From the NCBI RefSeq assembly GCF_000223905.1, contig NC_015948.1, forward strand, positions 1,922,001-1,986,000: a DNA stretch of 64,000 nt. The letters are read 5' to 3'. Position 1 is the first letter of the stretch. The number at the start of each line of letters is the position of its first letter. This DNA is from Haloarcula hispanica ATCC 33960. GTDB lineage: Archaea; Halobacteriota; Halobacteria; Halobacteriales; Haloarculaceae. Below the pieces are notes generated by a model. That model saw only the letters and a program-made list of their open reading frames with translations, had not been told where the DNA came from and did not search any database. The position numbers and the translations under genes were made by a program. Below, piece by piece: positions 1-4,810 of the stretch.

Positions 1-1039
1 GCACCGTGATGTTGACAACGTCGCCAATGTTGTCCTGAACGGTCGAGCTTTCGAAGCTTGCCTCACCGTCGTCGGACTCGGAGACGTTGATCTGGTCGGA
101 TTCGGCGGAGACGCCGGTCTGGTTGTCCGTCACTTTGACGTAGTACGGACTGTCGTCGGCGCTCTGGTTACCGAAGTCGAACACGACGTTCTCGTTACCT
201 TTCAGGCTCTCGACCTGCGTGGCAACCTTGTCGTCGTCCTCGTTGAACAGCGTTGCGTTGGCCGGCTCGCCACCACGCGTGGTCGAGACGTTGACCGCAA
301 GCGTGTCCTTGTCGTCGATGTTGGCACCGTCGCCGACATCGTCGTCAATGTTCACATTGAGATCGAGATTGCTGATGGTGATGTTTTCGTCCGCGTCACC
401 AGCGACGGAGACCTCGTATTCTTCACCAGTGTCGAGGTTTTCCGTTTCGTAGGTGTAGACTTTGCTGTTGGCTGTGTAAGTGTCCTGCGTGACGACAGCG
501 CCGTTCGAGTCCTCGACCACAATCTTCGTGCTCGAGGTAGCATCGTCATTGTCTGTGTCGCCGTCGGCTCGGATAGCCAGGACTTCACCGCGGAAGGCGT
601 TAGTGTCGCCCGAGTCATCGTCGGCGTCGATCGTCTGGGACGTCACGTCGATGTCCTCAGCGACGACCGTGTTGTCACCGCCGGTGAGACCTGAAACCTT
701 GACGGTCAGGTTCCGGTTCGGCTGAACGTCCTGATCCAGACTGAACTGGAGGCGTCCAGTTGTCCCGTCGTCAGTCGTGTCGACTGACGAGACACCGTAG
801 TTGCTCGGGTTCTTGTTGCCATCGACGTAGATGTCGATGTCTCCCGTATTGACTGTGCTACCGGTTGAACCATTGAGTGCCAATTCGACTGTCCCGCTAT
901 CGTATTCTGCTGCCTGCTGGACGCTGACGTTCGCGGCGGCGGCTGCGCCACCGGAGAACGCGATGGTCCCGGCGAATACCGAGAAGACCATCAGCGCCGT
1001 GAGGAACAGGCTGCGGATTTTTTCGTTTGTATCTGTCAT
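1..1039 (-). CDS. S-layer glycoprotein, copy 1 (5' part only)
   Basis: The gene runs off the left edge; 346 codons are visible. It encodes a secreted cell-surface glycoprotein nearly identical to the gene at 1612-4380. A signal peptide covers about residues 1-36: a short charged start, a hydrophobic core (LFLTALMVFSVFAG), then an AAAAA stretch before NVSV. The visible mature part is acidic and Asn/Thr-rich with many N-x-S/T sequons (NVSV, NGST, NLTV, NITI). Differences from copy 2 cluster at residues 3-8 (DTNEKI versus GNSDKV) and at a few scattered sites. S-layer proteins form the lattice wall of haloarchaea. Whether this copy keeps an intact C-terminus cannot be seen. Confidence 0.85.
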   Translation of the reverse strand, partial: MTDTNEKIRSLFLTALMVFSVFAGTIAFSGGAAAAANVSVQQAAEYDSGTVELALNGSTGSTVNTGDIDIYVDGNKNPSNYGVSSVDTTDDGTTGRLQFSLDQDVQPNRNLTVKVSGLTGGDNTVVAEDIDVTSQTIDADDDSGDTNAFRGEVLAIRADGDTDNDDATSSTKIVVEDSNGAVVTQDTYTANSKVYTYETENLDTGEEYEVSVAGDADENITISNLDLNVNIDDDVGDGANIDDKDTLAVNVSTTRGGEPANATLFNEDDDKVATQVESLKGNENVVFDFGNQSADDSPYYVKVTDNQTGVSAESDQINVSESDDGEASFESSTVQDNIGDVVNITV

Positions 1040-1157
1040 AGTTTGTGTTGCTATCGGGCGACCCCAGCAGTTTTCCACCTGGTCGGAACGCGGTCACCGC
1101 GACCGCGCATAGACCGAACCGGCGTACTCACTTCTGGCGTCATGGGTAGGGGTATCG
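1040..1157 (-). promoter_or_regulatory. Conserved 5' leader of S-layer copy 1
   Basis: These bases match 4381-4495 upstream of copy 2 except for one single-base indel and four substitutions; similarity stops at about 1157. In the transcript a perfect 7-bp hairpin forms from 1107-1101 and 1095-1089 (GACCGCG-type arms, 5-base loop). All four substitutions relative to copy 2 lie in this hairpin. A TATA-like element (ATAAAGCA on the minus strand, 1182-1189) would place the transcript start near 1157, so the conserved block probably equals the untranslated leader. There is no clear Shine-Dalgarno motif before the S-layer ATG. The start site is inferred. Confidence 0.6.
1051..1143 (-). other. Possible 30-codon upstream ORF in S-layer leader 1
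   Basis: An ATG at 1143 opens a 30-codon frame that ends in TAG at 1051-1053, eleven bases before the S-layer ATG. It begins MTPEVSTPVRSM. The same frame, start and stop occur in the copy 2 leader. Two of the four substitutions between the copies change an amino acid (R to H, D to G), so protein-level conservation is not demonstrated. It may be fortuitous. Confidence 0.25.
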
Positions 1158-1611
1158 GTACATTACCCGAAGTGCGGTAAATGCTTTATGGATAAAGGTT
1201 ACATCCAAATTACACATTGCTGTCAGGTAATAATTATTTTGAAATGGTATGTACTCTTATTCTGGATATTTATTTGACTCTTTCCTGGGACCAGATCTGA
1301 GAAACACGCCTCCCGATTCGACCGGCGGTTGTTCCATCACTCGACTACGGACGGGTCCCAAACCGTTACCGAAACCACCCTCGCAGTGGCGGACATCGAG
1401 GAGGTGTCCGGCAGGCGCTGGGTTACTGCCGCGTTGGGCCAGCGTTCGACTGTGATCCAGTCACGACTGCCGATGGGCAGTTAGCCGTTCAGAAGCGGAC
1501 GGAATCGTGTCTGAGTAAACAACGAGTCCCGAGTCGGTCTGCAGTCTGTTTGCACTCTTCACGTACGCGCACGAAAGAAAGAACGGTGTTCAGGGACCGG
1601 AGTGGTTCCGG
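1158..1611. other. Intergenic region between the S-layer genes
   Basis: No gene recognised. The left end (about 1158-1260) is A+T-rich and should hold the promoter of copy 1, reading leftward. An interrupted inverted repeat TTACC-N8-GGTAA lies at 1163-1180. The remainder, up to the stop of copy 2, shows no credible coding frame. It would include the 3' untranslated region of copy 2. Confidence 0.5.
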
Positions 1612-4380
1612 TTAGTTGTCGCGTCGGACAGCGAGGAGCGCAGCAGCGACGAGCGCGATGAGCGCGATGGCTGCCGTGAAGCCGGGACCTTCCGCTTCGG
1701 TGGTCTCGGTTCCAGTGTCCGGCGTGTCCTCAGGCGTGTCCGCAGGCGTGTCTTCTGGCGTGTCCTCAGGCGTGTCCTCAGGCGTGTCCTCAGGCGTGTC
1801 CTCAGGCGTATCCTCAGGCTCCTCGGCGGAGACAGTCACGTTCGCACTGTCCGTCACGGCGGAGCCGTTCTGGGTGTACGGACCGTCATCGCCGGGGAAG
1901 TCGTACTCTTCGTTGCCGTTGGTGTCCTGGTGCGGCATTGCGACCGCAGTGAAGTTCTCGTCCATCGGCTCGTCGAGCGTGATCGTGAGGTCATTGTACG
2001 TACCTGCTTCGAGGTACTCGGAGTTGCCGACGACGTCACCGGATGCGTCACCGGCGTGGATAGCGATGAAGCCGCCACTGGACAGCTGTGCGCTGTCGAC
2101 GACGACTTCGCTACCGTCGGACTCCTGATCGCTGATGCTCACGGTGGCCGTATCGGCTTCGACGATGCGGCCGTCTTCCTCGTCGCTGAAGTCGGAGTCA
2201 CCGTCGACGTCCAGCGTCTGGACGGTGAAGTTCGTTCCAGCGGAGTAGTCGCTGAAGTCTTCCGTAGCGACGTACGTGCCGTTCGGACCAACAGTTGCTT
2301 CCGGTCGTTCGACGAATGGGTTCGCCTCACTCTCGGACTCCATTTCGACTTCGAGCTCGGAGCCGGGGGCGACGTTCGTATCGCCGCTCACTGTCTGTCC
2401 GGCGGCGGCGCCAACGGTGACAAAGCCGTCGTCGTCAAGATTCAGCTCCGCGTTCCGCTCAGACGTGGTGTAGAGCTCGCTTTCGCTCGAAGAGTCGTCA
2501 GTCAGCGGACCTTCTTGCACGGAGAAGGTGGCGTTGATTTCCGTGTCCTCTTCCTCAGTGATCGTGTTACCGGACTCGAACTCGACGTCCTCGGTGTCGA
2601 GGGCGACGAAGTAGGTGTTGTTGTCCGGGTCGTCGACGACGGTCACTGCGCTACTGCTGTTGGCGAAGTTAATCGGATCTGCGTCAGCGTTTGCACCGAC
2701 GTCGGTCCGGTTGACGTAGAGCTGGAGGCCGGAGGCGCTCGTGTCGTCGTTGATACGGTCCGGCGTGGTGTCGGCAGCTGCGATGAACGCATCAGTCACG
2801 TCGGAAGACCCGTTGTCTTCCTGCTCGTATTCGAGCGCACCCTCGATACCGGATGCCTGGATTTCGTGGACGACGACATCTTCGACTGCGACGTCGTCGG
2901 ACTGCGTGAGGTTCTCACCGATGCGGTCGTAGATGTCGATATCCTCGTCGTCGATATCTGCGTCGCTCGGTGCAACCCAGGTCTGCATACTCTCGACGGA
3001 ATTCTCGTTGAGACGTAGCGTCCCAACCGTATCAGGACTGGTGACATCCGGGGAGGTCCCGGCGGTCACGTTTATCGAGTAGGATTGTGGTTCCAGTACA
3101 TCTTCGTCCAAGCTGTTCCTACTATCGGTGAAGCTTCCCTTCTCTTCGACTTCATCGAGGTCGTCGTCACCGGGGACGGTAAGAACCGTGTTGTTGTTGT
3201 CGGTCCCAGCGGTGTAGCTGTTGAACTGAACGGTAACTTCGCCGTCACCGTTGTCGTCCTCGAGCTGACCCTGGATGACGTAGTTGTCGTCGTTCTGGCT
3301 GCCGACGTTGATGACGGCGTTCTCGGTGTTACCCATCTGGACGGTGATGTTGGTGACGTCACCGACTTCATCCTGCACGGTGGAAGTCTCGAAGCTGGCG
3401 TCACCCTCACCGGACTCGGAGACGTTGATCTGGTCGGATTCGGCGGAGACGCCGGTCTGGTTGTCCGTCACTTTGACGTAGTACGGACTGTCGTCGGCGC
3501 TCTGGTTACCGAAGTCGAACACGACGTTCTCGTTACCTTTCAGGCTCTTGATCTGCGTGGCAACCTTGTCGTCGTCTTCGTTGAACAGCGTTGCGTTGGC
3601 CGGCTCGCCACCACGCGTGGTCGAGACGTTGACCGCAAGCGTGTCCGTGTCGTCGATGTTGGCACCGTCGCCGACATCGTCGTCAATGTTCACATTGAGA
3701 TCGAGATTGCTGATGGTGATGTTTTCGTCCGCAGTACCACCAACGGTGACCTCGTATTCTTCACCAGTGTCGAGGTTTTCCGTTTCGTAGGTGTAGACTT
3801 TGCTGTTGGCTGTGTAAGTGTCCTGCGTGACGACAGCGCCGTTCGAGTCCTCGACTACAATTTGAGTACTCGAGGTAGCATCGTCAGCGTCACCTTCGCC
3901 GCCGTCGGCTCGGATAGCCAGGACTTCACCGCGGAAGGCGTTAGTGTCGCCCGAGTCATCGTCGGCGTCGATCGTCTGGGACGTCACGTCGATGTCCTCA
4001 GCGACGACCGTGTTGTCACCGCCGGTGAGACCTGAAACCTCGACGGTCAGGTTCCGGTTCGGCTGAACGTCCTGGTCCAGACTGAACTGGAGGCGTCCAG
4101 TTGTCCCGTCGTCAGTCGTGTCGACTGACGAGACACCGTAGTTGCTCGGGTTCTCGTTTCCGTCGATGTAGATGTTGATGTCTCCCGTCGTGACTGGGCT
4201 ACCGGTTGAACCATTGAGTGCCAATTCGACTGTCCCGCTATCGTATTCTGCTGCCTGCTGGACGCTGACGTTCGCGGCGGCTGCTGCGCCACCGGAGAAC
4301 GCGATGGTCCCGGCGAATACCGAGAAGACCATCAGCGCCGTGAGGAACAGGCTGCGAACCTTGTCTGAATTTCCTGTCAT
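1612..4380 (-). CDS. S-layer (cell surface) glycoprotein, copy 2
   Basis: A 922-residue secreted protein forming the surface lattice. The signal peptide is residues 1 to about 36 (MTGNSDKVRSLFLTALMVFS, then a Gly/Ala-rich cleavage region). The mature chain is strongly acidic with many N-glycosylation sequons. Near the C-terminus is a run of PEDT repeats, then GPGF followed by a hydrophobic helix and RRDN. This is the PGF-CTERM arrangement that archaeosortase A cleaves and replaces with a lipid anchor. Thr-rich spacers before the anchor are typical of haloarchaeal S-layer proteins. The ATG at 4380 is supported by the signal peptide and by the matching start in copy 1. A TATA-like AAACATATAC (4521-4530) lies about 27 bases before the end of the conserved leader. 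Confidence 0.92.
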   Translation of the reverse strand: MTGNSDKVRSLFLTALMVFSVFAGTIAFSGGAAAAANVSVQQAAEYDSGTVELALNGSTGSPVTTGDINIYIDGNENPSNYGVSSVDTTDDGTTGRLQFSLDQDVQPNRNLTVEVSGLTGGDNTVVAEDIDVTSQTIDADDDSGDTNAFRGEVLAIRADGGEGDADDATSSTQIVVEDSNGAVVTQDTYTANSKVYTYETENLDTGEEYEVTVGGTADENITISNLDLNVNIDDDVGDGANIDDTDTLAVNVSTTRGGEPANATLFNEDDDKVATQIKSLKGNENVVFDFGNQSADDSPYYVKVTDNQTGVSAESDQINVSESGEGDASFETSTVQDEVGDVTNITVQMGNTENAVINVGSQNDDNYVIQGQLEDDNGDGEVTVQFNSYTAGTDNNNTVLTVPGDDDLDEVEEKGSFTDSRNSLDEDVLEPQSYSINVTAGTSPDVTSPDTVGTLRLNENSVESMQTWVAPSDADIDDEDIDIYDRIGENLTQSDDVAVEDVVVHEIQASGIEGALEYEQEDNGSSDVTDAFIAAADTTPDRINDDTSASGLQLYVNRTDVGANADADPINFANSSSAVTVVDDPDNNTYFVALDTEDVEFESGNTITEEEDTEINATFSVQEGPLTDDSSSESELYTTSERNAELNLDDDGFVTVGAAAGQTVSGDTNVAPGSELEVEMESESEANPFVERPEATVGPNGTYVATEDFSDYSAGTNFTVQTLDVDGDSDFSDEEDGRIVEADTATVSISDQESDGSEVVVDSAQLSSGGFIAIHAGDASGDVVGNSEYLEAGTYNDLTITLDEPMDENFTAVAMPHQDTNGNEEYDFPGDDGPYTQNGSAVTDSANVTVSAEEPEDTPEDTPEDTPEDTPEDTPEDTPADTPEDTPDTGTETTEAEGPGFTAAIALIALVAAALLAVRRDN
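1721..1816 (-). repeat. 12-bp tandem repeat coding for PEDT units
   Basis: Eight consecutive 12-base units (plus-strand consensus GGCGTGTCCTCA) encode repeats of Pro-Glu-Asp-Thr. One unit reads PADT. Silent changes occur in a few units and the middle ones are identical, as expected for expansion by slippage. The segment lies just outside the membrane anchor of the S-layer protein and is probably an extended, O-glycosylated stalk. Confidence 0.85.
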
Positions 4381-4495
4381 AGTTTGTGTTTGCTATCGGG
4401 CGACCCCAGCAGTTTTCCACCTGGTCGGAACGCGGCCACCGTGGCCACGCATAGACCGAACCGGCGTACTCACTTCTGGCGTCATGGGTAGGGGT
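4381..4495 (-). promoter_or_regulatory. Conserved 5' leader of S-layer copy 2
   Basis: Counterpart of 1040-1157. The hairpin is formed by 4449-4443 and 4437-4431 with a 5-base loop (4438-4442). Compared with copy 1, one base pair is changed on both sides (U-A to C-G in the transcript), one G-C pair becomes a G-U wobble, and one loop base differs, so the stem is kept. The promoter upstream is unrelated to that of copy 1. The predicted transcript start near 4498 coincides with the point where similarity between the copies begins. Confidence 0.6.
4393..4485 (-). other. Possible 30-codon upstream ORF in S-layer leader 2
   Basis: Same frame as at 1051-1143: ATG at 4485, TAG at 4393-4395, twelve bases before the S-layer ATG. 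The only indel between the two leaders lies outside this frame, between its stop codon and the S-layer start. No ribosome-binding motif is visible before it, but about 13 bases separate it from the predicted transcript start. Confidence 0.25.
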
Positions 4496-4810
4496 ACAGT
4501 CTAAACGATAGGTGTCTGTTGTATATGTTTTGTGGTTAGGAAATCTGATTGTCATGAATAGTCAAGCCCCAAAGACGCCATCTGAGGCGATTAGATGTGG
4601 TCCAAGCAGCTTGTAGGTCATAGCACAGGATCGGCATTCGGGCGTTTGACGGCCCAGAGCTACGTATCGGAGATGGTATCGCTGGCCTGAGACGCTAGGG
4701 CTTCACAGATCCTCACTGCTCGCTCAGGAACGACTCCGTAGACGAATCTCCTTCTGACAGCTACCGCGCGAGAATAGATTAGAACAGACGGTTAGTACCG
4801 ACCAGTGCCG
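4496..4810. other. Intergenic region with S-layer copy 2 promoter
   Basis: The TATA-like element at 4521-4530 (minus strand) is the probable promoter of the S-layer gene. From about 4550 to 4800 no gene is recognised. A short minus-strand frame around 4662-4770 reads like the end of a protein (VVPERAVRICEALASQA) but has no start codon and matches nothing I know. Confidence 0.45.

Follow-up and report, generated by a model that had tools for sequence, protein, structure and literature searches.

Haloarchaea have the surface-layer (S-layer) protein as their main wall, and it is among their most abundant products. Three described systems come closest to the one reported here. Bacterial small RNAs (sRNAs) acting through a loop expose that loop to a complementary stretch in the 5' leader of an mRNA, and matched changes are found in the two partners. 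The sarcin-ricin, or loop E, motif of rRNA and several regulatory RNAs places AGUA opposite GAA(A), closed by Watson-Crick pairs, and is near-invariant. The third system is the control of the S-layer gene csg in Haloferax volcanii, described in excerpts of one report as translational repression in stationary phase, with neither a mechanism nor an RNA element in those excerpts (PMC3225822). We analysed a stretch of 64,000 nucleotides of Haloarcula hispanica ATCC 33960 (contig NC_015948.1, positions 1,922,001 to 1,986,000; hereafter the window), in which two S-layer genes carry a long folded leader whose 5' end is complementary to the loop of a candidate sRNA encoded elsewhere in the genome. As in the bacterial systems, an exposed loop matches an mRNA leader and the partners change together; unlike them, the pair is archaeal, is found in most of one order, mostly at one copy per genome, targets the extreme 5' end of a single gene family and is predicted from sequence. 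The leader also resembles known loop E motifs, by sequence consensus, but carries its motif within an mRNA leader; with csg it shares the gene class. We consider it likely that the leader is a structured element acting in cis and that the sRNA, acting in trans, pairs with its 5' tag and regulates the S-layer message.

The two S-layer genes lie in tandem, both on the minus strand. Their positions, with those of the leaders, the 12-nt tags at the leader 5' ends and the sRNA gene, are as follows.

1612..4380, minus strand: S-layer gene a, 922 aa, with DUF7827, DUF7282 and a PGF-CTERM anchor
1..1039, minus strand: S-layer gene b, 5' part only, continuing beyond the window edge; 93% identity to gene a over 320 aa
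4381..4497, minus strand: leader a, of the upstream S-layer gene, 117 nt (pairwise alignment and covariance-model match)
1040..1155, minus strand: leader b, of the second S-layer gene, 116 nt (pairwise alignment and covariance-model match)
4486..4497, minus strand: 5' tag of leader a, GUACCCCUACCC, 12 nt, complementing the sRNA loop GGGUAGGGGUAC
1144..1155, minus strand: 5' tag of leader b, AUACCCCUACCC, with 11 contiguous pairs to the sRNA loop
G000:C3:934779-934882, plus strand: sRNA gene of the same genome (L269), outside the window; single copy, covariance-model match

The tag GUACCCCUACCC (leader nt 1-12) is near-invariant across the order, has a mean unpaired probability of 0.75 and complements the conserved sRNA loop GGGUAGGGGUAC exactly. 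In many genomes, a string search located further copies of the tag, reverse-complemented and at loci apart from the leader. In the genome of the window the exact 12-mer is restricted to the sRNA and leader a, leader b being mismatched at nt 1 only. Of 195 genomes, 49 contain an exact match to a longer 16-mer, CGGGTAGGGGTACACG, at one to three copies (reversed-pattern control: 0), and this 16-mer forms the loop of a hairpin RNA with promoter-like sequence upstream. The common stem of this hairpin, GCCGAAA-GGCAC/GUGCC-UUUCGGC, is itself supported by covariation, 7 of its 12 outer pairs having changed on both sides (0/500 shuffles). The sRNA model matches 112/146 genomes of the family and 327/392 of the order, nearly always in single copy. 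Short variants of the sRNA retain the loop and alter the stem; in one family (f17, L246-L266), one to three extra short copies have the same loop, a hairpin followed by a U-rich tail, and TATA-like promoters of their own.

If the two RNAs are partners, changes in one should be matched in the other, and each leader was therefore paired with the sRNA loop of its own genome. Leader nt 9 and loop nt 4 form A-U in 55 cases, G-C in 5 and G-U in 1: where the leader has G, in six genomes, the loop has C in five and a G-U wobble results in the sixth. At a second position, a G at leader nt 3 meets a C at loop nt 10 in two genomes (G096 and G111). On a tree of the MptE protein, the nt 9 G-C state occupies two separated places, a group of G096, G099 and G111 with G144 nearby, and G141 beside Haloarcula; on this single-gene tree it would therefore have arisen at least twice. 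A standard leader combined with the G096 loop pairs more weakly by 11 kcal/mol, and the nucleotide change therefore matters. The predicted 12-bp duplex of tag and loop reaches -26.9 kcal/mol, and leader and sRNA cofolded give -85.6, compared to -70.3 apart. Self-pairing of the loop (GUA/UAC) does not explain its conservation, because the variant loops GGGCAGGGGCAG and GGGCAGGGGUGU lose it and still pair with their own leaders.

The leader behind the tag is structured along its length. S-layer genes were found by protein in 25 of 32 Haloarcula genomes, and 34 leaders were aligned. The RNAalifold consensus of the ~117-nt leader is a rod, in which the 5' third pairs with the 3' third: a basal helix P1 (alignment columns 15-26/85-96), an internal loop, a helix P2 (32-42/70-80) and an apical hairpin (48-55/61-68). 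In the two leaders of the window these elements fall at the following positions.

4472..4483 (5' strand) and 4402..4413 (3' strand), minus strand: P1 of leader a (consensus fold, covariation, order-wide test)
1130..1141 (5' strand) and 1060..1071 (3' strand), minus strand: P1 of leader b (consensus fold, covariation)
4467..4471, minus strand: GAGUA strand of the internal loop, leader a, invariant in the 34 Haloarcula leaders
4414..4417, minus strand: GAAA strand of the internal loop, leader a, likewise invariant
1125..1129, minus strand: GAGUA strand of the internal loop, leader b, likewise invariant
1072..1075, minus strand: GAAA strand of the internal loop, leader b, likewise invariant
4456..4466 (5' strand) and 4418..4428 (3' strand), minus strand: P2 of leader a (consensus fold, covariation)
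1114..1124 (5' strand) and 1076..1086 (3' strand), minus strand: P2 of leader b (consensus fold, covariation)
4430..4450, minus strand: apical hairpin of leader a, the initially annotated stem plus one pair (consensus fold, covariation)
1088..1108, minus strand: apical hairpin of leader b, the initially annotated stem plus one pair (consensus fold, covariation)

Across the 34 leaders, 95.5% of the cells of the three helices are paired, as against 32-53% when the register is slid. Seven pairs have changed on both sides, touching every helix, and the 42 such cells compare to 8.8 in shuffles (0/500). We then used a sequence-only alignment of 114 leaders from 103 genomes outside Haloarcula, with null columns simulated on a tree. 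The pairs predicted in Haloarcula showed 23 paired-to-paired double changes elsewhere, whereas the 400 null simulations averaged 7.6 and never exceeded 16. In these 114 leaders the AGUA positions are conserved in 109, 109, 113 and 111 cases and the GAAA positions in 98, 99, 107 and 109. AGUA stands opposite GAA between closing Watson-Crick pairs, a loop that we take, at the level of sequence, to follow the sarcin-ricin (loop E) consensus. An ACCCC-GGGGU pairing inside the leader, spotted by eye, is lost in G020 and related leaders and was discarded. A scan of 4227 Rfam models, with E up to 1 accepted, gave no match for either the leaders or the sRNA loci; with respect to riboswitches, no Rfam aptamer matched the leaders, and alternative folds were not searched.

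The apical hairpin is where this element first came to notice. The initial annotation had described one indel and four substitutions between the two leaders, all four in a 19-base hairpin (1089-1107 and 4431-4449), and alignment bears this out, the indel lying close to the start codon. As RNA, the two versions are CGCGGUC-GCGGU-GACCGCG and CGUGGCC-ACGGU-GGCCGCG: three of the changes preserve the stem (U-A to C-G on both sides, C-G to U-G) and the fourth lies in the loop. The probability that four random substitutions all hit one 19-nt stretch of ~115 nt is 5.6e-4. The annotation had read selection on RNA structure from this, a reading that would fall if related leaders broke the stem freely. 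They do not in Haloarcula: the hairpin helix has 98.1% paired cells, three of its eight pairs have changed on both sides, and in G010 and G011 (L217) leaders shortened by 3 and 6 nt in the hairpin have rebuilt the stem. Covariation scoring, which the annotation had proposed, gave 0.223 over the three helices, equalled in 0/500 shuffles. The structural reading is thus supported but incomplete: folding extends over the entire leader, which is conserved across the order; the hairpin is its most variable part, at the tip, and the 5' end complementary to the sRNA its most constrained.

A covariance model built from the Haloarcula leaders was run on 146 genomes of the family and 392 of the order. 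It matched 78 and 109 of them respectively, the latter in 34 of 95 genera. All of 120 sampled matches directly precede an S-layer-like N-terminus with a signal peptide; the test for this was a lenient pattern, and the printed proteins look alike by eye. S-layer genes missed by the model carry a TATA box plus ACCCCTACC, and a structure-free search with the 5' tag recovered further S-layer leaders. Haloarcula replicon loci bearing GTACCCCTACCCATG were considered as leader copies and rejected, as they precede a different gene and have no leader. A repeated family of non-S-layer open reading frames (ORFs) in Haloarcula and a relative (L239-L245) starts with GTACCCCTACCCATG, without leader fold or S-layer promoter, by coincidence or for another reason. 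Haloarcula also has a second class of S-layer-like genes from which the leader is absent (L014, L037-L039, L042, L043). An inverted repeat in their promoters, TTTAGGC-N-TGCCTAAA in type, is reminiscent of the sites of iron regulators (DtxR/Idr-type). In G001, two leaders (L013, L041) seem to repeat part of their sequence on either side of an N, probably through an assembly error.

In the window, the covariance model matches leader a with 147 bits (G000:C3:1926378-1926497, ATG included) and leader b with 143 bits (G000:C3:1923037-1923155). The block common to both finishes with TACCCC at its 5' end, and the limits set in the initial annotation differ from it by no more than 2 nt. TATA-like boxes lie upstream at 4521-4528 (leader a) and 1176-1183 (leader b); judged by their positions, the transcript of leader a would start near 4497, and the start of leader b is placed in the same way. 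Promoter position would put both starts ahead of the hairpin, and not within or beyond it, where a start had been named in the initial annotation as refuting the structural reading. The two genes are near-identical from the leader through the signal peptide into the N-terminal region (900-1155 and 4241-4497), as expected after duplication or gene conversion, and their promoters differ, which suggests gene conversion with separate transcriptional control.

The fold, its conservation, its link to S-layer genes, the complementarity of tag and loop and their covariation in trans come from comparison of genomes; from these we infer that cells express both RNAs and that the two pair there. In the mechanism we propose, the tag GUACCCCUACCC would be a mostly single-stranded 5' end ahead of the rod. 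The rod and its internal loop probably keep the tag free and bind a protein or the ribosome, and the apical hairpin would cap and stabilise the rod. The tag would pair with the sRNA loop GGGUAGGGGUAC, first contact being a loop-tail interaction at the invariant CCCC/GGGG. The resulting 12-bp duplex, next to P1 at the extreme 5' end, is most likely to regulate translation in the first place and decay in the second. Two reports bear on this choice. One, on csg, describes translational repression of the H. volcanii message in stationary phase (PMC3225822); in the other, 72% of H. volcanii messages, and the majority of those expressed at high levels, are leaderless (PMC4983044). We favour translation because of that repression and because the leaderless norm makes a leader exceptional. 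One outcome could be that S-layer synthesis is lowered at growth arrest; the main alternative would be that the 5' end is protected from decay.

The foremost competing explanation, which we judge unlikely, is that the leader acts purely in cis, as an mRNA stabiliser, a translation enhancer or a loop E protein site, and that its complementarity to the hairpin near mptE is incidental or reflects one protein binding both RNAs. The rod and the AGUA/GAAA loop are indeed conserved on their own, S-layer mRNA ranks with the most abundant transcripts of Haloquadratum walsbyi (PMC5496347), and a costly leader needs a reason where highly expressed haloarchaeal genes mostly lack one (PMC4983044). Yet this would leave unexplained why a conserved loop contains an exact 12-nt complement and why the two RNAs show matched changes, and a shared protein site would normally be the same sequence, not its reverse complement. 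Improbable, too, is that a transcription regulator binds the 12-mer as DNA near both gene starts, in opposite orientations. The tag does sit at about +1 to +12 downstream of a TATA-like box, and a reversed site would be compatible, but the spacing to the promoter differs for the second copy, which is placed in the loop of a hairpin with a covarying stem, and the short sRNA variants retain the loop while altering the stem.

A further explanation invokes an upstream ORF (uORF), through a leader peptide or uORF control. An ORF scan finds one in each leader.

4393..4485, minus strand: 30-codon uORF through leader a; functional peptide unlikely
1051..1143, minus strand: 30-codon uORF through leader b; functional peptide unlikely

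A 30-codon ORF spans nearly all Haloarcula leaders, its ATG stands at +13 in 147 of 156 leaders, and the hairpin deletions of 3 and 6 nt preserve the frame. Against this, the start is AAG, ACG or AGG in the other nine, from several lineages; 66 of the 147 uORFs have no stop ahead of the main ATG, and their frame relative to it is variable. Third codon positions are the least variable, and in G005 five of five changes 5' of the hairpin alter the peptide. We rejected the uORF as the cause of conservation, as start codon, frame and peptide are not conserved; it may be translated, and its peptide, judged from these comparisons, is not the conserved feature. As an account of the leader, uORF action is very improbable. 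A local mutational artefact behind the four changes in the window (quasi-palindrome template switching or patchy gene conversion) would fit the near-identical 5' ends of both genes, but has a negligible chance of being right, because in the wider alignment compensatory changes recur across independent lineages and reach helices distant from the palindrome, including the non-palindromic P1.

Some observations weigh against a dedicated sRNA-leader pair. All 109 genomes with a leader carry the sRNA (106 by model, 3 by short variant), and by model alone the frequencies are 106/109 and 221/283 in the others (Fisher p 6e-7), but such tests ignore phylogeny, and many sRNA-bearing genomes have no leader match at the model threshold. 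The covariance-model search is biased towards sequences with the right fold. When all 6903 column pairs were screened on a tree, none fell below E = 0.9; this screen was underpowered, hence the restriction of the order-wide test to pairs predicted in Haloarcula, and the structural pairs hold five of its top nine ranks. The flanks of the sRNA loop can partly self-pair; its central GGGG is open in prediction. Finally, in most lineages the sRNA is found between folP and mptE, immediately upstream of the latter (in Haloarcula it is mptE-adjacent only), and because of this position it may be an mptE leader rather than a separate RNA. The short form exists elsewhere, which suggests that the hairpin is able to stand alone. 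All in all, we lean towards an sRNA of most Halobacteriales that has the 5' end of S-layer mRNA as its dedicated target, kept by covariation in trans, and that would switch or protect this message, possibly as a removable 5' cover, perhaps linking it to the pterin gene mptE.

Neither RNA was reported in the openly licensed PMC papers we searched, including by string search for the sequences; novelty is provisional because the search covered these papers. Both are absent from Rfam, to which they would add two RNA families. The finding is also larger than the initial annotation, whose hairpin merely caps a long folded element. To our knowledge, few archaeal small RNAs have known targets. Here, complementarity and matched changes suggest that an sRNA controls the most abundant surface-protein message of these archaea, and a target backed by covariation in both partners would make S-layer control directly testable by two point mutations.

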